Source: a virus
IMG/VR virus record: IMGVR_UViG_3300025894_000051
Coordinates: 1 to 27,346 of that record
Length of the DNA: 27,346 bases
Strand: one strand, 5' to 3'
The position numbers and the translations under genes were made by a program. Below are positions 10,438 to 27,346 of the stretch, in pieces. Position 1 is the stretch's first letter; every line of letters starts with the position of its first letter. The notes under the pieces were generated by a model that did no database searches, had not been told where the DNA came from, and saw nothing but the letters and a program-made list of their open reading frames with translations.

Positions 10438-11466
10438 ATGGCTCAAGCAACATCATACGGAATAACTTCAGTTCAGGGGGCGAGGGAAGACCTCAGCAAC
10501 CAACTCAAACGTGTCGCACCCGAAGACACTCCAATGTACTCTCTTCTCCCACAATCAGCCGCGCCAAAAGCGGTCGAAACAAGCTGGATTGCAGATACTC
10601 TCGACAATCCATCATTTGGAACTCCTCCAATCGATGGAGCAGATTTAGCATTTCCTTCTGCTTCTTACACAGATGAAATTGCAAATCGCGTACGATTAGG
10701 AAACTTAATTCAAACCTTTCAGAGACAATCGAGTGTTAGTCCTATCGCAGAGGCTATCGATGTAAGTGGCCCACAGACCTCACTTTTGGCGGCGTCAAAA
10801 GCTAGAGTCTTGACCCAGCTCAAAACTGACATAGAAGGTGCAATCGGATCTTCTAATGTACAATCTGCTGGATCCTCTACTGCTGGCTCAAAAATGTCAG
10901 GTCTTCTTCATGTTACAGATCCAGCATCGACTAGTGGGTTTTTCAGTACTACTGCAAAGCAAGGATTTAGATCGGTAAGCGGAAGTAGACACGGATCAGG
11001 AACTCTCACCGAAGGTGCGTTTCGGACTGTTGTTCAGTCTATATACGAGGCTGGAGGTAAAGCCCAAAACTACCGCTTGTTCTGCGGAAGTTCGATCATG
11101 AATGCTCTTACTGGATTCAGTCGAGCAACCAATATCGTTGGAGGAACTCAGGCAAACTTTGATGCAAATATTCAAGGTACTACTTTGACCCTCTCTGTTG
11201 TAGAAATCATCGGAGATTACGGAAAAATCGTAGTGATTCCTGACCTTTTTATTAACAGGACGAGTGGATCGGGACTTACCGCATTATCAAAGAAATCGGG
11301 AGTTCTTATTCCTGAAGATGACAATGTAAGTCTCAAAATGCTTCAGCCTATATCAGTTCAGGATCTTCCTGATGTTGGTGGAGGCGGTGAGCGTTTTCTC
11401 ACTAGGGCGATTCTTACCTTGTGTGTTTTGAACCCAAGAGCATTGGGATCAATCATCTCAGTTTAA
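10438..11466 (+). CDS. Major capsid protein, SU10/DUF5309-like (HK97 fold)
   Basis: This 342-residue protein is the main shell subunit. The start (SYGITSVQGAREDLSNQLKR then VAPEDTPMYSLLP) matches the signature of the SU10-type or DUF5309 capsid family, in which 'RED L.. .i..i.P.dTP..s.i' is followed by a W/Y-rich strand (KAVETSWIADTLDNPSFGTP). Later features are the helical spine-like segment (AASKARVLTQLKTDIEGAIG) and the C-terminal P/A-domain strands (LTLSVVEIIGDYGKIVVIPD). Size and position immediately after the scaffold fit well. Gly/Ser-rich spacing near residues 140-190 may be a surface loop. The leader is AT-rich without a Shine-Dalgarno sequence, which is striking for what should be the most highly expressed gene. 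Confidence 0.92.
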   Translation: MAQATSYGITSVQGAREDLSNQLKRVAPEDTPMYSLLPQSAAPKAVETSWIADTLDNPSFGTPPIDGADLAFPSASYTDEIANRVRLGNLIQTFQRQSSVSPIAEAIDVSGPQTSLLAASKARVLTQLKTDIEGAIGSSNVQSAGSSTAGSKMSGLLHVTDPASTSGFFSTTAKQGFRSVSGSRHGSGTLTEGAFRTVVQSIYEAGGKAQNYRLFCGSSIMNALTGFSRATNIVGGTQANFDANIQGTTLTLSVVEIIGDYGKIVVIPDLFINRTSGSGLTALSKKSGVLIPEDDNVSLKMLQPISVQDLPDVGGGGERFLTRAILTLCVLNPRALGSIISV

Positions 11467-11537: not shown

Positions 11538-11834
11538 ATGTCTTTAAATATAATAGTCAGAAAAGGTGGACGAAAAATGAGTGACGAGGAACTAGCTCAT
11601 TATATGTCCAAGCAAAACGAGGAAGCTGTCATTCGTGAGAAAGCGACCTATAAGGAGAGATCACGAAGGATCCGCAAGGAAGCCGAAAATATCCAGCTAC
11701 CCAAAGGAATGAAAGTTCAGGGCGTTTACGATGCCCGAACCTACTTTCGTCATGAAGCTGAAAACCCAGGTTGTACTTCAGATGAAAGCTACATGAGAGA
11801 GCTTCGTAGGGACAACGATGAGATGAAAATGTGA
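11538..11834 (+). CDS. Small charged protein between capsid and adaptor genes
   Basis: This 98-residue, strongly charged, mostly helical protein starts with a short strand (MSLNIIVRKGGRKMSDEEL). Its middle is a Lys/Arg/Glu-rich helix (ATYKERSRRIRKEAENIQLP) and its acidic tail is YMRELRRDNDEMKM. No membrane segment, signal or known motif is seen. Its place between capsid and adaptor suggests a minor head or connector-associated protein. No Shine-Dalgarno sequence precedes the ATG. The stop overlaps the GTG of the next gene (GTGA), which starts a coupled chain running to 14340. I do not recognise the family. Confidence 0.6.
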   Translation: MSLNIIVRKGGRKMSDEELAHYMSKQNEEAVIREKATYKERSRRIRKEAENIQLPKGMKVQGVYDARTYFRHEAENPGCTSDESYMRELRRDNDEMKM

Positions 11835-12487
11835 GGACGATTACCTACCAAGATCTACTTAAGAAATACACTTCATTAAGAGGTGTAGACTTGTTGCTGG
11901 ATTCGGAAAAAACCGATTTCAGTAATTCACTCAATCACCGAATAAAACAGATTTGGGTGAAGGCAAAGTGGAGTGATCTGTTGGTAGTTGTCGAAAAGAC
12001 AATTCAAGTAATTAGTACCGATACCTTAAAAGCTGAAAATGCTGTCAGAATAGATGATGCTATTGATCTCTATGATGTCTTCGGGGTTTATAACAAAAAC
12101 CCATATGAAGATACCGGAGCTATACGAATCGATCACACTTTGATCGATGGTTATTTAGTTCTACCAAGATCAACTACAGCCACATCTGTATTTGTGGTGG
12201 GATCGAAGGTTCCAGCAGACGACTACGGAGAGGGATATTTTTCAGGTCAAGGTAGGACAGATATTCCGGCATTCATGGAGTGGGCGTTACTTAGTTACGC
12301 AATGCATGACCATTTCTTGGCAGATGGGCAAAGCGACAAAGCATTAGTCGAACTACAAAAAGCTCAAGAGTATCTAGCAGAGGCAATGGAAAGATTTGAG
12401 CGAATCGAATCTCAAAACAAAGTCTCAGTTAATACCTATCCTTCATATCATACTACCAATCTAAATCTTGCTCAAAGAAACATATGA
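11831..12487 (+). CDS. Head-tail adaptor / tail tubular protein A-like
   Basis: The protein has 218 residues and starts with GTG overlapping the previous stop. The N-terminus (TITYQDLLKKYTSL then LLLDSEKTDFSNSLNHRIKQ) and the central IWVKAKWSDLLVV are followed by a beta-rich section and a helical C-terminal part (AFMEWALLSYAMHDHFLADG then KALVELQKAQEYLAEAMERF). The alpha-bundle with a beta excursion, the size near 200 and the position between capsid and nozzle fit the T7 gp11-like adaptor that joins portal to nozzle. The sequence alone gives only moderate support; another head-completion protein is possible. It overlaps the glycosyltransferase start (ATGA). Confidence 0.7.
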   Translation: MRTITYQDLLKKYTSLRGVDLLLDSEKTDFSNSLNHRIKQIWVKAKWSDLLVVVEKTIQVISTDTLKAENAVRIDDAIDLYDVFGVYNKNPYEDTGAIRIDHTLIDGYLVLPRSTTATSVFVVGSKVPADDYGEGYFSGQGRTDIPAFMEWALLSYAMHDHFLADGQSDKALVELQKAQEYLAEAMERFERIESQNKVSVNTYPSYHTTNLNLAQRNI

Positions 12488-13287
12488 TCAAATCCTTCTC
12501 AGTCTGCGCTAACGATAGGGCAAAGCGAGAAGTCGCCTTGCTCATTAAAAGCATTCGTCAGTTCTACGACTGCCCGGTATTCGTATCTTGCGATATATCA
12601 ACTAAGACTTTCTTGGAAAGTCTTAGGTTCAAAAATATCGAGTATAGAGTCAATCTTGAGCCTGAAAACTTAGAGCGTAAAGATAGGCTTGTTCGTCATG
12701 TGGTAGACCAAAATGATTTTCATTCCAAATCTATCATTTTATCCAAAATGGATTGCATCGAGTGGGCATTAAAATCAACTGATGAAACTACCTTTGTTGA
12801 TGCCGACATAGTTTTGATAAAGCCTATCAATGAGGATATTGATCGATCAATGGAATTGATGATTTCACCTCACTTCCATGTTGAGGATAAGGTAAAGCAA
12901 AACCGAACATATGGAGCGTTCAATGCTGGTTACCTTTGGACAAAATCAAAAGACTTTCCACAAGCGTGGAGAGATGTCTATCTAACTCGATCTAAGTTCT
13001 ATGAACAAGAGGGTTTGATCCATATGTTCGAGCAATTCGACATAAGGACATTTAGCAAGAATCATAATGTTGGTTTTTGGAGATTCGCTAAAACATGGAA
13101 TCGTGGGAATCTCAGTCTTCAGGATTCGGTTGAAAATTGGGATAAGGTTAAGTCAGTTCATTTCCATTCCTTCCCTGAAACTTATGCTCATGCCGATAAA
13201 GGGCTAATCAAAGGATATGATCTATTGAAAGAGATCATATTTCCCAAGTTGCCGGACGAACTAAAGGAGTTTGCCAATGCTATATAG
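12484..13287 (+). CDS. GT-A-type glycosyltransferase-like protein
   Basis: The protein has 267 residues. The N-terminus (SFSVCANDRAKREVALLIKS) and a strand-helix-strand pattern (YDCPVFVSCD) suggest a nucleotide-sugar-binding Rossmann-like half. The DXD motif lies in TTFVDADIVLIKPI (D106-A-D108), the metal/nucleotide-sugar site of GT-A enzymes. FNAGYLW (a typical acceptor-side FN(S/A)G motif) and HFHSFPETYAHADKG near the C-terminus add support. It should transfer a sugar from a nucleotide donor, with unknown acceptor. Translation is coupled on both sides: ATGA with the adaptor gene and an 11-base overlap with the sulfotransferase gene. The pair may modify virion proteins or a host surface glycan. 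It is a plain cytoplasmic enzyme with no membrane segment. Confidence 0.75.
   Translation: MIKSFSVCANDRAKREVALLIKSIRQFYDCPVFVSCDISTKTFLESLRFKNIEYRVNLEPENLERKDRLVRHVVDQNDFHSKSIILSKMDCIEWALKSTDETTFVDADIVLIKPINEDIDRSMELMISPHFHVEDKVKQNRTYGAFNAGYLWTKSKDFPQAWRDVYLTRSKFYEQEGLIHMFEQFDIRTFSKNHNVGFWRFAKTWNRGNLSLQDSVENWDKVKSVHFHSFPETYAHADKGLIKGYDLLKEIIFPKLPDELKEFANAI
13264..13269 (+). promoter_or_regulatory. Ribosome binding site that fixes the sulfotransferase start at ATG 13277
   Basis: AAGGAG lies 7 bases before the ATG at 13277 but only 1 base before an in-frame TTG at 13271. The ATG is therefore the likely start. The site lies inside the end of the glycosyltransferase gene. Confidence 0.8.
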
Positions 13288-13924
13288 CAAGGTAAATACC
13301 TGGGCTTTTGTTCATGTTCCCAAGAATGCTGGAACATCTGTAGAGGCTCCTTTTCTCAGGTATAGTAATCCTGATTTTGAAAGCGAAAGATCTCATTACC
13401 AAGTCGATGCATTTGAGGTTAAACCTCAGGCTCATCATAACAAATGGAACTATTGGTCAGAGCGTCCTGAAGTAAAGGGATTAACCCCAGTTGCATTGTT
13501 ACGGAATCCTTGGGATAGGGCATTATCAATTTATACCTACAACCTTAAAAACGCTTCTAAAAACCTAGATCAGGATTGGGGTCAGATAGATCATGGAATC
13601 TTAACAAAGCAAGGTTTCAAAGAATCTTGGATGGATGGTGGATTCTTCGTAGATGGACATGGAAGGCAGTTTGAATACAACGAAAAAACTTGTCGAGCAT
13701 GGGGTCAGGATGATGACCAATATTCATGGCTAGAAGGCGAAGGTAAATGGTTCAGGATAGAAGACCAATGGGATGACTTTTGTTCCTTCACTAAACTACC
13801 TAAGCCCAAGAAAATCAACACTACCAAAAGAGGCGATTATAGGAATTACTACGACGATGAGTTAGCCGAAAGAATAGCAACTTTGTTTGCGAGAGATGTA
13901 GAGCTAGGAGGTTACACATTTTGA
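13277..13924 (+). CDS. Sulfotransferase family protein
   Basis: The protein has 215 residues and is predicted to transfer a sulfuryl group from PAPS to a hydroxyl or amine, often on a carbohydrate. The 5'-phosphosulfate-binding loop is FVHVPKNAGTS (residues 11-21, K16), matching the FxHxPKxAGTS signature of carbohydrate sulfotransferases. The 3'-phosphate site is ALLRNPWDRALSIY (R76, S84), matching RxPxxRxxSxY. Both key sites are intact. Length is in the normal short range. Coupling to the glycosyltransferase upstream strongly suggests they act on the same glycan. The stop overlaps the TTG start of the next gene (TTGA). Phage-encoded sulfotransferases are known in environmental viruses, but their substrates are generally undefined. 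Confidence 0.88.
   Translation: MLYSKVNTWAFVHVPKNAGTSVEAPFLRYSNPDFESERSHYQVDAFEVKPQAHHNKWNYWSERPEVKGLTPVALLRNPWDRALSIYTYNLKNASKNLDQDWGQIDHGILTKQGFKESWMDGGFFVDGHGRQFEYNEKTCRAWGQDDDQYSWLEGEGKWFRIEDQWDDFCSFTKLPKPKKINTTKRGDYRNYYDDELAERIATLFARDVELGGYTF
13906..13911 (+). promoter_or_regulatory. Strong ribosome binding site supporting the TTG start at 13921
   Basis: AGGAGG lies 9 bases before the TTG at 13921. It supports this non-ATG start, which is needed to include the lipoprotein signal of the next protein. Confidence 0.75.
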
Positions 13925-14340
13925 AACTATTAATCATATGCCTGACTCTTCTTGCTGGTTGTTCAATGAAGCAATGGTATCCAACTATGGGAGCTGTAGT
14001 TGGCGGTGGAGCTGGATCATTAGGTGGCCCAGTTGGATCTGCTCTTGGAGCTGGAGGTGGAGCATTGATAGGTGAGGTTGTTAAAGGTAATGCGGAAATT
14101 GAAGAGGCGAGAGAAACCATTTCAGCTTTATCTCATGGCGATGTACAAAAGTTGGTCGAGAAGGGAATGGAGCAACACGCCAGCGGATTTGAATCATTCA
14201 CAACCACAATCAAACGAATCCTGATAGGAGCTTTTGTAATTCTTCTTTGCTACCTTGCGATCCCAATATTTGTAGCTCGAAAATGTTCGAGGTCTGAGGC
14301 TCAAAAACACCTAACTCGTCCACCTTTTCCGACGAAATGA
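13921..14340 (+). CDS. Lipoprotein with C-terminal membrane helix, unimolecular spanin candidate
   Basis: The protein has 139 residues and starts with TTG (AGGAGG site at good spacing). The N-terminus is a lipoprotein signal (MKLLIICLTLLAGC, lipobox LLAGC, lipid-acceptor C14). A Gly-rich stretch (AVVGGGAGSLGGPVGSALGA) follows, then a charged helix, and a C-terminal transmembrane helix (RILIGAFVILLCYLAIPIFV, about residues 99-119) with a basic tail. Having both an outer-membrane lipid anchor and an inner-membrane helix is the defining layout of unimolecular spanins such as T1 gp11, which fuse the two membranes at lysis; length is similar. The Gly-rich part also resembles a glycine zipper. It is the last gene of the coupled chain. 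A virion or accessory lipoprotein is the alternative. Confidence 0.65.
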   Translation: MKLLIICLTLLAGCSMKQWYPTMGAVVGGGAGSLGGPVGSALGAGGGALIGEVVKGNAEIEEARETISALSHGDVQKLVEKGMEQHASGFESFTTTIKRILIGAFVILLCYLAIPIFVARKCSRSEAQKHLTRPPFPTK

Positions 14341-14350
14341 TGATGATATA

Positions 14351-14725
14351 TCAGAAGGTCTTGGAGAATGCGTCCCAAAAAATTGAAATTACTGAATAAG
14401 CAATCGAAATAAATATAACCACCACCACAATCATAATCATAATTCCAAATTGTTTCGAGCTCATCTTCCCTTCGCGCATTTTATCCAATTTATCAATATA
14501 CTCTAATGCATAGGGGTTATCTCTCCACTTATGACGCAAATCATTAAAGTTGTCGGTTACATAATCAAGCTCTTGTGTGATCAAAGATTCGATTTCCTGT
14601 TGTTGTTTTTCCTCATCCGAAAGATCAAAAAAACCAACTTTGTGTTTTCTGCCACAATTTGGGCATATCGTTCCATTAGCATCAGAGTGTTTTGCCCCAC
14701 AGTCAGTACAATTCATTAATCCCAT
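14351..14725 (-). CDS. Zinc-ribbon protein with C-terminal membrane helix
   Basis: The protein has 124 residues. A short zinc ribbon lies at the N-terminus: C6xxC9 and C21xxC24 (MNCTDCG, TICPNCGRKHK). It is followed by an acidic, Glu/Gln-rich helical region (DLSDEEKQQQEIESLITQEL) and a second charged helix. The C-terminal hydrophobic helix (FGIMIMIVVVVIFISIAYSV) is near residues 98-118. The layout is that of a tail-anchored or single-pass inner-membrane protein with a cytoplasmic zinc-binding head. An ATG at 14716 (MNCTDC) is an alternative start. The family is not recognised. It lies antisense within the tail/lysis region, tail-to-tail with the spanin candidate. Confidence 0.6.
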   Translation of the reverse strand: MGLMNCTDCGAKHSDANGTICPNCGRKHKVGFFDLSDEEKQQQEIESLITQELDYVTDNFNDLRHKWRDNPYALEYIDKLDKMREGKMSSKQFGIMIMIVVVVIFISIAYSVISIFWDAFSKTF

Positions 14726-14761
14726 AAAAAATAATAATATCTAAATTTTTAGTATGTAAAG

Positions 14762-14878
14762 ATGAAAAACCTCAAACTACTAACTGAAAAATACAAATCC
14801 CTAACCAAGCGAGGAAAGATGATCACTTGCCTACTTATTCTTATGATTCTGATCTTCATACTCGATCTCTTTGCCTAG
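14762..14878 (+). CDS. Tiny single-helix membrane protein
   Basis: The protein has 38 residues: a basic N-terminus (MKNLKLLTEKYKSLTKRGKM) followed directly by one hydrophobic helix (ITCLLILMILIFILDLF). A basic leader and one C-terminal helix are common in small phage membrane proteins near lysis and tail genes. Similar KYKSL..RGKM-type short proteins occur in marine podoviruses as far as I recall, but I cannot search for them. Its end overlaps the antisense zinc-ribbon gene by 48 bases. No Shine-Dalgarno sequence is seen. It may be a holin or antiholin; short length and overlap make it less certain as a real gene. Confidence 0.5.
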   Translation: MKNLKLLTEKYKSLTKRGKMITCLLILMILIFILDLFA

Positions 14879-15373
14879 AAATTCATGACCACAATCAGAG
14901 CATTTAAAACAATTTTCGAGCGTTTCGATAGTAGATATAGGATAGCTGTTTGGCGGACTTTTATGAATATCACGAACAAGTTCATCATAAATAAATGTCC
15001 CGCCTTTCTTATTACATTTTGGGCATTCAACCCCTTCTTTAGGGTTACCAGCTGGATACCAATTATGCTTACACATCCAACATTGCCACAGCCCTTTAAA
15101 AGTCAAAGTCGAATATGCCTCCCCTCGTCCCAATTCTTTGTGTCCTCCCTTTGTGTCGCACTTCGGGCATTTCATAAATTTGTCTTCAAACTGAGCCAAG
15201 AGAAAACATCCAATTACAAGAAATAAACAAGACCCTAGAAATGTCACAAAACCATGAGCCAAAAAATCAAAAAATGTCCACGAATCTTCAAAGTTTTTTA
15301 ACACCTCATAAAGAGGGTACAACAGGCTTAAGATATAAAACCAAAAACTACCTATGAAACTTCTTATTTTCAT
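14831..15373 (-). CDS. Membrane protein with two zinc ribbons
   Basis: The protein has 180 residues. Two hydrophobic helices lie at the N-terminus (FIGSFWFYILSLLYPLYEVL near 6-25 and FVTFLGSCLFLVIGCFLL near 42-59). The soluble rest holds four CxxC pairs: C69/C72, C98/C101, C117/C120 and C158/C161, with ECPKCNKKGG and CSDCGHEF as clear zinc-ribbon knuckles. These would form two zinc ribbons on the cytoplasmic side. No catalytic motif is visible. It lies antisense between the tiny membrane gene and the 47-residue gene. A second zinc-ribbon membrane gene 105 bases away on the same strand suggests a common role, but none can be named. Confidence 0.6.
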   Translation of the reverse strand: MKIRSFIGSFWFYILSLLYPLYEVLKNFEDSWTFFDFLAHGFVTFLGSCLFLVIGCFLLAQFEDKFMKCPKCDTKGGHKELGRGEAYSTLTFKGLWQCWMCKHNWYPAGNPKEGVECPKCNKKGGTFIYDELVRDIHKSPPNSYPISTIETLENCFKCSDCGHEFLGKEIEYEDQNHKNK

Positions 15374-25600: not shown

Positions 25601-27198
25601 CTGGGCTTCGGGATTTACTTGAGTCAGGAGTAATCAAGAAAAGCTTCAAGTCTTTCGATGTCGAAGCCCTAGCTGGAATAAGGCGTGGGGAGAAAAAGGC
25701 TTTTGCATTTGATTACGAAAATATCAGGAACAACTACAATCCCTTTAGGCAAAGTGAGCAGTTGTTCATGCCTGTTGAAGTTCAGGAAGGTTCACCATCA
25801 AGTCCATTTAAAAGAAGGTCTGCCGGAAACAAGCTCTCTAAGACAAGAAACTTCAAGAACTCAGTTTACATGAAAGACGGATCTCGTTTGTCAGGCGTGG
25901 CTGACAATGAAACTCAAGACCCATTCATTGGTTTTGATAAGAGCGGTCAGGCATTCAGTATCCAACGCGAGTTCGTAAAGCCTGAGGACATTACTGGATC
26001 AAAGGATGGTGATAAAATCGCTAACACCATCAAAGGAGAATTAGAGAATAAAGGAGTTTATCCTATCTATAAAAATCCTAAGAAAGCTATTGATGAAGGT
26101 ACTCATGGAGCTGTTGTTCAAAAGGGTATCAGGATCGATCAGAAGTTAGCGGATCAGCTCTTCAGTCCAGCTTCTGCTGCCTATTTTGACGCTGGTTTTT
26201 CTCCCGAAACTTATGTTGGTAAAGCCGGATTTCCAATGATGGCTGACCGAATGAAAACCACTCCTCATGTCGCTAGGGATGGGACAGAGTTTGAGCTTAG
26301 AGGTGGCCCTGATCATCCCGATATACCTATTAACGAAGGTAAAGTGGGCTGGGCTTCAATGGCTGGAGGTCAGGCAACACAGCTACAAAATGCAATAAAT
26401 TCAACTGATGGAATTGGTCTCGTAACTTTAATGAATGAAGACGCAGTAGCCAGCAACAGAACTTTTGCTCGAATTATGATTCATGAGTTAAAGCATGATC
26501 GTAAAACCAACAAGGAAGCTCGTAAGATTCTGCCTGAGAAGATAAAGAATGCATCCCAAGCGATAAGAGAATGGGCAGAGAAGAATGACAAGAAGTCGCT
26601 CAAGAAGTTTAAAGTAAAAACTTTGGAGGATATTGAGGCTATTTATGAAGATCTCAGCTTTGAAGTCCGGAAGATTCTTTTTACTAAAATTGCAGACATA
26701 ACCTACAAGAGAAAGGTCGGTGGATTCTTTTGGAAAGATCTCATGAGAGAAGTAATTGCCTACAAGAACGAAGATGGATACAGAACTGGCGACATTGTAA
26801 AAGTCATCAAATTTGAACAGGGCGATTCAATAGTAAATCTTGAGGATCTTGGAATACCTCCCGATCCGACTTATGATACCAGCTTCAAGGGGCAATCTAT
26901 ATCAAATGTTCAGGGTAGGGTAAGTGTATTTCAGGTCATGAGAAATGCCTTCGATCTAATAGCAGAAGAGAGCGGAAAAGAGGGTAGGACAATGACTGAT
27001 GAAAATGCGGTTGGTGCGCAAGCTTTTAGAACTGTTCAAATGCGTGGTTTAACCGATGAAAGATTCCATCAAAAACTTAGTCCAAGTAGTTTAGACCCTA
27101 GAGGTTATGACCCGATCAAATTCAAGTCCAAGAGTGGCCCTGAAAGGAGATCGCTTGAGGTCAGACAAGCTGAAAATAAGTTTATGCAGACCAAGTAG
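22684..27198 (+). CDS. Giant ejection-protein candidate with two HExxH metallopeptidase-like motifs
   Basis: The protein has 1504 residues, similar in scale and position to T7 gp16 (internal virion protein D), but no lytic transglycosylase motif is evident. Helical and Gly/Ala-rich hydrophobic segments (AVGGQLVGGVTGSIPLAMEL, SVGAINAGLAGLAG, GAMAGGGFLAGGF) lie between about residues 300 and 455 and could insert into membranes. Two zincin-like motifs follow: H567-E-T-G-H571 in ATELIAHETGHDFIYRAIG, and H1267-E-L-K-H1271 in RTFARIMIHELKHDRKTNK. The stretch LRGGPDHPDI and VGWASMAGG just before the second motif recalls the metallopeptidase domains of large polyvalent phage proteins. It probably enters the host with the DNA. 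Domain borders cannot be set by eye. Confidence 0.65.
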   Translation: MPSEQEVLSKINALENKLGIEKDFISQADVLSQINAVEQRIASTPMSIDQFVEKRRADSVKSTSEKASAFGTGLVEGVKGMAKEGGEALEEVPWYWATGVGALADYDTLGDILNIGSRDFTRFAKTLGGAIMDKAGPYSTAEEIQREYKRYRENFDYYEKVRPKMLESDDIEHKKLVSFGANFVDPFMIFPVAKAGAFATKTTLRATQAGLTAGAKLSRSQGLVNVANKMKSSRRAVQKLERGVDIAGKIGAYPTEMAARVTAKALRKGLKGTSYVAGVGLKGVGRLGQGTAFMASLPRKAVEKTAKAISKKAEDVSGFAVGGQLVGGVTGSIPLAMELGIAEGVGLIAKKVGLGFGEVLKTLGQPASNKRFLYRLATNSKVSPSTRKRAMYAYNHYGTAVGDAMFNMVANGVSVGAINAGLAGLAGEDYENMGAMAGGGFLAGGFIPTGQQGMKAGKTNFARDTASIDAHMKNKLTEDQRKAFVKMPRPAQVMLSTLQEAGIGSPKFMIMEPKAYLDFLNESRRQNNLPELDRAPKGHFDKPSRTIYINESNLPQSSRVATELIAHETGHDFIYRAIGDDPTMLQLLLEPYRTKEGKGTAFHYRYDDKGNPLGDPIYLDDTAVAIQRDYDSKQRGRPATSEDVAKGLAQREGELIGGISIGKDASKLAQEIGAEQFAMMFTKDPNAFENFHPRLRRYLLDSSRRLLGILGVVEPSSGNPLSNPISKAQLDNPSIRRIYENYGRARAIELDEKGQLAKKGMLIQPKKGQTGEDRFVELFGGNGLSLTDAKNLVISNKSLRREIDAMKKRYKENPEDGWSTTKRGFLIGKKLTNDLRTIFTRNDPFRNVATILNALQEAIDQRVGIVFGYRSGTKSKRQNPFRIRDVAIYGWQVSAGTLKVLGYDQAVVRQNMQTLVEKGYVKDIKDFEKRLAEQGQKALADPEGRINPEGRKENEIMTVAFGLKESAGEIASPGLRDLLESGVIKKSFKSFDVEALAGIRRGEKKAFAFDYENIRNNYNPFRQSEQLFMPVEVQEGSPSSPFKRRSAGNKLSKTRNFKNSVYMKDGSRLSGVADNETQDPFIGFDKSGQAFSIQREFVKPEDITGSKDGDKIANTIKGELENKGVYPIYKNPKKAIDEGTHGAVVQKGIRIDQKLADQLFSPASAAYFDAGFSPETYVGKAGFPMMADRMKTTPHVARDGTEFELRGGPDHPDIPINEGKVGWASMAGGQATQLQNAINSTDGIGLVTLMNEDAVASNRTFARIMIHELKHDRKTNKEARKILPEKIKNASQAIREWAEKNDKKSLKKFKVKTLEDIEAIYEDLSFEVRKILFTKIADITYKRKVGGFFWKDLMREVIAYKNEDGYRTGDIVKVIKFEQGDSIVNLEDLGIPPDPTYDTSFKGQSISNVQGRVSVFQVMRNAFDLIAEESGKEGRTMTDENAVGAQAFRTVQMRGLTDERFHQKLSPSSLDPRGYDPIKFKSKSGPERRSLEVRQAENKFMQTK

Positions 27199-27252
27199 TC
27201 AGATGCTTCCTTCTAGCAATGCTACTGCACAAGAGCTTGATCGGTTTGGTAA

Positions 27253-27345
27253 TTAGTCACCTAAACTATTACCAGCCATTATAGCCAACGAGTCATCTAT
27301 GAAGTTAAAAAGATCATTTGGAGAATACCAATCAATATACTGATT
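27253..27345 (-). CDS. Possible partial gene entering from the right edge (C-terminus only)
   Basis: A minus-strand frame is open from the right edge to TAA at 27253-27255, giving 30 residues: NQYIDWYSPNDLFNFIDDSL then AIMAGNSLGD. The mix of aromatic, acidic and hydrophobic residues is protein-like, and it would end tail-to-tail with the giant gene 55 bases away, as other minus-strand genes here do. It is too short to assign and could be chance. Confidence 0.3.
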   Translation of the reverse strand, partial: NQYIDWYSPNDLFNFIDDSLAIMAGNSLGD

Positions 27346-27346
27346 G

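Follow-up and report, generated by a model that had tools for sequence, protein, structure and literature searches.

A conserved, overlapping glycosyltransferase-sulfotransferase gene pair as a candidate glycan-sulfation module in two phage backbones

Introduction

Why should a phage carry, among its capsid genes, a glycosyltransferase-like gene that overlaps a sulfotransferase gene, and what would the two products modify? Sulfotransferases are encoded by marine phages, and their biological function was described as unclear in 2023 (PMC10580990); others without an assigned function have also been reported (PMC10829341). We found no description of a coupled glycosyltransferase-sulfotransferase cassette, or of a sulfated phage virion, in the open-access literature that we searched. 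The locus analyzed here gives this question a concrete form, as its two overlapping genes are under selection and are common to two phage backbones, and as one relative is tied through an attachment site to a PAPS-making single-cell genome (SAG) that appears to produce a sulfated polysaccharide. The acceptor can thereby be narrowed to two main candidates, a virion protein or a host polysaccharide.

Results

The locus and its gene overlaps

The window, by which we mean the whole 27,346-nucleotide stretch analyzed, is the 27-kb virus record IMGVR_UViG_3300025894_000051, and it contains an SU10-type capsid gene. A near-identical 41-kb contig (G001) additionally holds replication genes and an integrase-like gene that reads as a tyrosine integrase. 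The last ~1.6 kb of the window (25767-27346) has no match in G001; the large ORF at this end is identical to its G001 counterpart over the first 737 residues and diverges later, reflecting either strain variation or a chimera. On the plus strand, the capsid gene is followed by a run of genes, the glycosyltransferase candidate (GT1), the sulfotransferase gene (ST) and a lipoprotein-like gene at 13921:

10438-11466, plus strand: major capsid protein (SU10_MCP; PF17236, E = 1.8e-38; phrog_1328)
11831-12487, plus strand: upstream gene, 218 aa, adjoining the block of capsid genes; putative head-tail adaptor, judged from its position
12484-13287, plus strand: GT1, GT8-like (GT-A) glycosyltransferase, 267 aa; a tentative assignment from the DXD motif and an AF2 model
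13263-13287, plus strand: putative translation-coupling region, from sequence, with AAAGGAG and the ST start codon inside the GT1 3' end
13277-13924, plus strand: ST, predicted from profiles as a PAPS-dependent sulfotransferase of the Sulfotransfer_2/phrog_3347 type, 215 aa from the ATG
13921-14340, plus strand: candidate spanin-like protein, 139 aa, with a lipobox, a glycine zipper and one transmembrane segment

An earlier note made from the sequence alone had described these genes as mutually overlapping, and they are: the GT1 ATG at 12484 overlaps the stop of the preceding gene by 4 nt (ATGA), GT1 and ST overlap by 11 nt, and ST and the lipoprotein gene by 4 nt. The ST start assumed in that note, TTG 13271, where the ORF opens and which would make the second overlap 17 nt, is probably wrong. 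ATG 13277 is the better choice, since a Shine-Dalgarno-like AAAGGAG lies just 5' of it and homologous STs, in a second phage group described below, begin at the equivalent position with M-I/L-Y-S. No promoter or terminator of the cassette's own stood out, the scan giving fewer sites than shuffled sequences.

The upstream gene had been called a head-tail adaptor, a label that we do not retain as a family assignment: it rests on position, as the product has no significant family match even when searched together with its relatives. The downstream gene product carries LLAGCS, which resembles a lipobox, along with a single strong hydrophobic segment, and it is plausibly a unimolecular spanin; a homologue also follows the cassette in five relatives (L005-L007, L013 and L035). 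Within the late region, the minus strand at 14351-15373 encodes two small, cysteine-rich (zinc-ribbon-like) membrane proteins.

The two predicted enzymes

Both proposed reading frames exist, and profile searches were informative for ST. It matches PF03567 (Sulfotransfer_2) at 22.9 bits, just above the cut-off of 22, and phrog_3347 over its full length (E = 1.6e-10). The two PAPS-binding motifs read earlier from the sequence are indeed there, the 5'-PSB as HVPKNAGTS (residues 15-23) and the 3'-PB as LRNPWDRALSIY (residues 77-88), and the PAPS site is kept in relatives, with VPKNAG, H56-N57-K58 and RNPW invariant in seven ST homologues. Aligned by hhalign with a set of five host-cell and four phage sulfotransferases, the ST profile gave 99.6% probability over 200 columns, a comparison that is not fully independent as four of the nine are phage proteins found with the ST family. 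From these profiles and motifs, ST is predicted to be a Sulfotransfer_2-type, PAPS-dependent enzyme. Its AF2 model is poor (pLDDT 49, pTM 0.47) and gave no PDB match. Annotated phage genomes yielded just four weak ST matches at 23-30% identity, including Stenotrophomonas phage DLP_6 and Pelagibacter phage Mosig; identity within the cassette cluster is 53-63%.

GT1 matches no Pfam or PHROG family, PF01501 (GT8) included, and has no homologue in annotated phage genomes; searches of the PDB by sequence, with the GT1 and ST alignments as queries, gave no meaningful match. The DXD motif is found at D106-A107-D108, as the note had claimed, and is invariant together with N147-A-G-Y across nine homologues (48-74% identity), which also keep many aromatic and charged residues. 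An AF2 model from a thin alignment (pTM 0.69, pLDDT 59) is good over the first ~70 residues (block means 74-94) and poor over residues 107-150, around and after the DXD. Searched against the PDB with Foldseek, this low-confidence model returned 33 matches at E<=1e-3, all of them to glycogenin (GT8) with TM scores of 0.36-0.51. A GT-A-like match, as foreseen for GT1, was thus obtained from a weak model, and GT1 is probably a GT-A/GT8-like enzyme whose membership of GT8 is structural and tentative. Transmembrane segments are absent from both proteins.

The pair recurs in two unrelated phage backbones

Scans of viral contigs identified seven GT1 loci and 22 sulfotransferase loci, plus one single-cell genome. 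The overlapping GT1-ST pair is present in five relatives with the window backbone (L005, L006, L007, L035 and L009) and in five with an unrelated backbone (L018, L019, L020, L022 and L023), which has a different capsid protein (phrog_334) and a different terminase. In the window and G001 the layout is GT1-ST-lipoprotein; in L005, L006, L007 and L035 it is GT1-ST-GT2-fibre-like protein-lipoprotein; and in the second group GT1-ST-GT2, in the same overlapping order, lies immediately before the terminase. The tie that the earlier note drew to adaptor and lysis genes in particular is therefore not a general one. GT2, a second glycosyltransferase candidate with a DXD motif, is found in most cassette-bearing relatives and scores 22.1-24.9 bits against PF01501 (cut-off 24.3). 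Descent of GT1 and GT2 by duplication is unsupported, as their profiles gave no significant alignment.

The widespread occurrence of the pair in related phages has one apparent exception, L009 (contig G003), where the layout is similar to that of L005 and the ORFs are split. We do not take these broken copies as a real loss; in G002, the other contig assembled from that sample, the capsid ORF is likewise interrupted, so that the split copy looks like a sequencing error. In two further relatives (L008 and L013) the order is GT1-DUF6625-Sulfotransfer_4 (PF17784)-PF04488 glycosyltransferase, which reads as a non-orthologous replacement of ST by PF17784 beside the DUF6625 and PF04488 glycosyltransferases. 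That the sulfotransferase was swapped in these relatives and not lost suggests that sulfation is the conserved trait. A scan with the upstream gene likewise showed that every relative whose contig runs past it has GT1 and a sulfotransferase, with none continuing past it without them.

Both genes are under purifying selection, with dN/dS in close pairs of 0.05-0.09 for GT1 and 0.10 for ST. Taken with the sequence families and the recurrence of the same overlapping pair elsewhere, the low dN/dS argues that the association is more than chance. The coupling of a sugar-adding with a sulfating step, as the note had proposed, is strongly supported by the overlapping pair in two unrelated backbones, and also by the relatives in which ST is missing and a sulfotransferase of another family sits beside other glycosyltransferases.

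More distant ST homologues lie in the head and tail blocks of three unrelated contigs, two of them with adjoining glycosyltransferases: protease-capsid-..-methyltransferase-ST-GT in L025, GT8-like-ST..head-tail adaptor in L026 and ST..tail terminator-tail tube in L030.

Between the upstream gene and the lipoprotein gene lies a slot whose gene content varies among relatives. After GT2, three relatives encode a fibre-like protein in which a TDAHLLNRANHTGTQ-type motif is repeated (L005:4101-4922, L006:10978-11487 and L035:5685-6539); at the corresponding place in the window phage, this protein and GT2 are both missing. Both phage types encode a 61-aa protein close to the cassette (L035:7115-7405 and L044:2600-2785, 59% identical), which points to gene exchange and perhaps to hosts in common.

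A relative is integrated in a marine Verrucomicrobial genome

L035 is contig 22 of the uncultured marine Verrucomicrobia SAG AG-908-P09, and its phage genes pass into ordinary chromosomal genes, one of which reads as hisA. A homologue (66%) of the integrase, matching PF00589 above cut-off, lies at the end of SAG contig 10 and adjoins a tRNA-Phe gene. Both SAG junctions have a 39-bp repeat whose sequence is that of one half of this tRNA-Phe, and an exact copy of the 39 bp precedes the integrase in the free virus G002:

L048/L049 (SAG contig 22), L059:10411-10449 and L041:13779: prophage/att sites, 39-bp core

With attL, attR and, from G002, attP accounted for, L035 is an integrated prophage, which is a new finding here and marks the virus family as temperate. 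A search of 286 genomes of the SAG's class for GT1 returned this prophage as the only match.

The SAG encodes an APS kinase, indicating that this host can make PAPS. Its contig 43 (L067) carries Wzt with a Wzt_C domain, GT2/GT4 enzymes, methyltransferases and six sulfotransferases, five of which belong to the same broad family as the phage ST, so this host is likely to assemble a surface polymer that is sulfated. The SAG also has 81 sulfatase-family matches, 80 of them over the cut-off and some representing pieces of a single gene; together with the contig 43 cluster, the ~80 matches make this host seem one that both makes and digests sulfated glycans.

For the window phage, the attP region before the integrase differs and appears to contain the 3' portion of a tRNA-Cys; it had no exact match among 384 genomes of the SAG's class, four of which matched with two mismatches. 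Any host proposed for the window phage is for these reasons drawn from its relative.

Discussion

We tentatively favor a late-expressed, cytosolic, two-enzyme module for glycan sulfation that uses host PAPS and has a virion protein as its preferred acceptor. The GT8-like enzyme would transfer a sugar from a host nucleotide-sugar to the acceptor, ST would next add sulfate from host PAPS to that sugar, and in most relatives GT2 would extend or vary the glycan. The acceptor would most likely be a capsid, neck or tail protein, giving the particle a negatively charged, sulfated glycan. Such a glycan could imitate the sulfated polysaccharide on the host's own surface; alternatively, it could stop progeny from adhering to debris and the sulfated polymers on which the host lives.

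We place a virion protein first among the candidate acceptors, given that the cassette lies among capsid genes and that distant ST homologues lie in head and tail blocks. From the gene order we infer that the cassette is made together with virion proteins; in relatives with the window backbone a conserved phage-encoded glycosyltransferase accompanies virion genes, and a cytosolic protein acceptor fits the lack of transmembrane segments in GT1 and ST. The fibre-like protein cannot be the only acceptor, as the window lacks it at this position. Against a virion acceptor, the second phage group has its cassette before the terminase and not with capsid genes, and the Wzt-exported polysaccharide of the SAG host, rich in glycosyltransferases and sulfotransferases, would be an equally cytosolic target. 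The predicted activities themselves have to be read with a GT1 model of low confidence near the DXD and a poor ST model. It is possible, although doubtful, that this phage family uses the two enzymes to place a sulfated glycan on its own particle that mimics the sulfated polysaccharides of a Verrucomicrobial host, which would both bear and digest such polymers; if so, sulfation would be both a modification of virions and a form of molecular mimicry.

Wzm/Wzt-type polysaccharide assembly finishes in the cytoplasm. As the SAG host assembles its polymer there, that polysaccharide is the main rival acceptor, and soluble enzymes such as GT1 and ST would suit it. The two enzymes would then alter the sulfation or capping of the polymer before export, and the same phage would no longer adsorb to infected or lysogenic cells or to the debris they leave; the prophage state of L035 in a genome with the contig 43 cluster and its ST-like sulfotransferases is in keeping with this. 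We nevertheless regard it as rather unlikely: the cassette is packed into a late operon with no detectable promoter of its own, unlike typical lysogenic-conversion genes, and known phage O-antigen modification (gtr) depends on membrane proteins, which are absent here.

Less probable still is that the genes are mobile morons with a role in host metabolism or on small molecules, such as sulfation of a glycolipid or an osmolyte, for which the place next to the capsid genes is simply a tolerated insertion site. The varying contents of the slot and the different location of the cassette in the other phage type would suit such an origin, but strong purifying selection and the retention of GT1 and a sulfotransferase in all relatives that have the upstream gene and extend far enough past it argue against it. 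Hypermodification of DNA, with GT1 glycosylating modified cytosines and ST decorating them for protection from restriction, has a precedent in glycosyltransferase- and sulfotransferase-based base modification in phages (Iyer et al., 2013, cited in PMC10829341) and a C5-cytosine DNA methyltransferase in the window and G001 phage (3978-5405), yet it is highly improbable, since that methyltransferase does not travel with the cassette, not being found in the sequence of the other cassette-bearing contigs, PF12851 (TET/JBP) gave no matches in eight records (nor did the control give any), the cassette is placed among late genes, and the best structural matches of GT1 are to glycogenin, a protein-modifying glycosyltransferase.

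The closest precedent for a virion acceptor is the glycosylation of mycobacteriophage capsids (Che8 and Rita) by phage-encoded glycosyltransferases (Freeman et al., 2023, cited in PMC11256854). There, as here, the phage encodes its own glycosyltransferases, although a capsid or tail acceptor is hypothetical in our case; the account given in PMC11256854 names no sulfotransferase, the host belongs to a different phylum, and our GT1 has no PHROG or Pfam family. GT1 tentatively resembles glycogenin in the GT-A-like match of its weak model, its DXD and the N-A-G segment that follows it, and differs in having no Pfam GT8 match or match by sequence to a solved structure. ST shares with phrog_3347 ('Galactose-3-O-sulfotransferase') and PF03567 a full-length profile match and both PAPS motifs; the substrate in that name is an annotation, and ST is only 23-30% identical to the four matched phage records, DLP_6 and Mosig among them. 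Pelagibacter phage Mosig EXVC030M encodes its sulfotransferase close to two annotated glycosyltransferases and a pair of methyltransferases, but in a 141-kb Kyanoviridae genome, near RuvC and with other glycosyltransferases, and ST is 23% identical to it over about half its length. Finally, the sulfated exopolysaccharide clusters of Verrucomicrobiota such as Pontiella (PMC7356697) combine glycosyltransferase and sulfotransferase chemistry in the same phylum and are akin to the SAG contig 43 cluster, although they serve chromosomal polymer synthesis, unlike the phage cassette described here.
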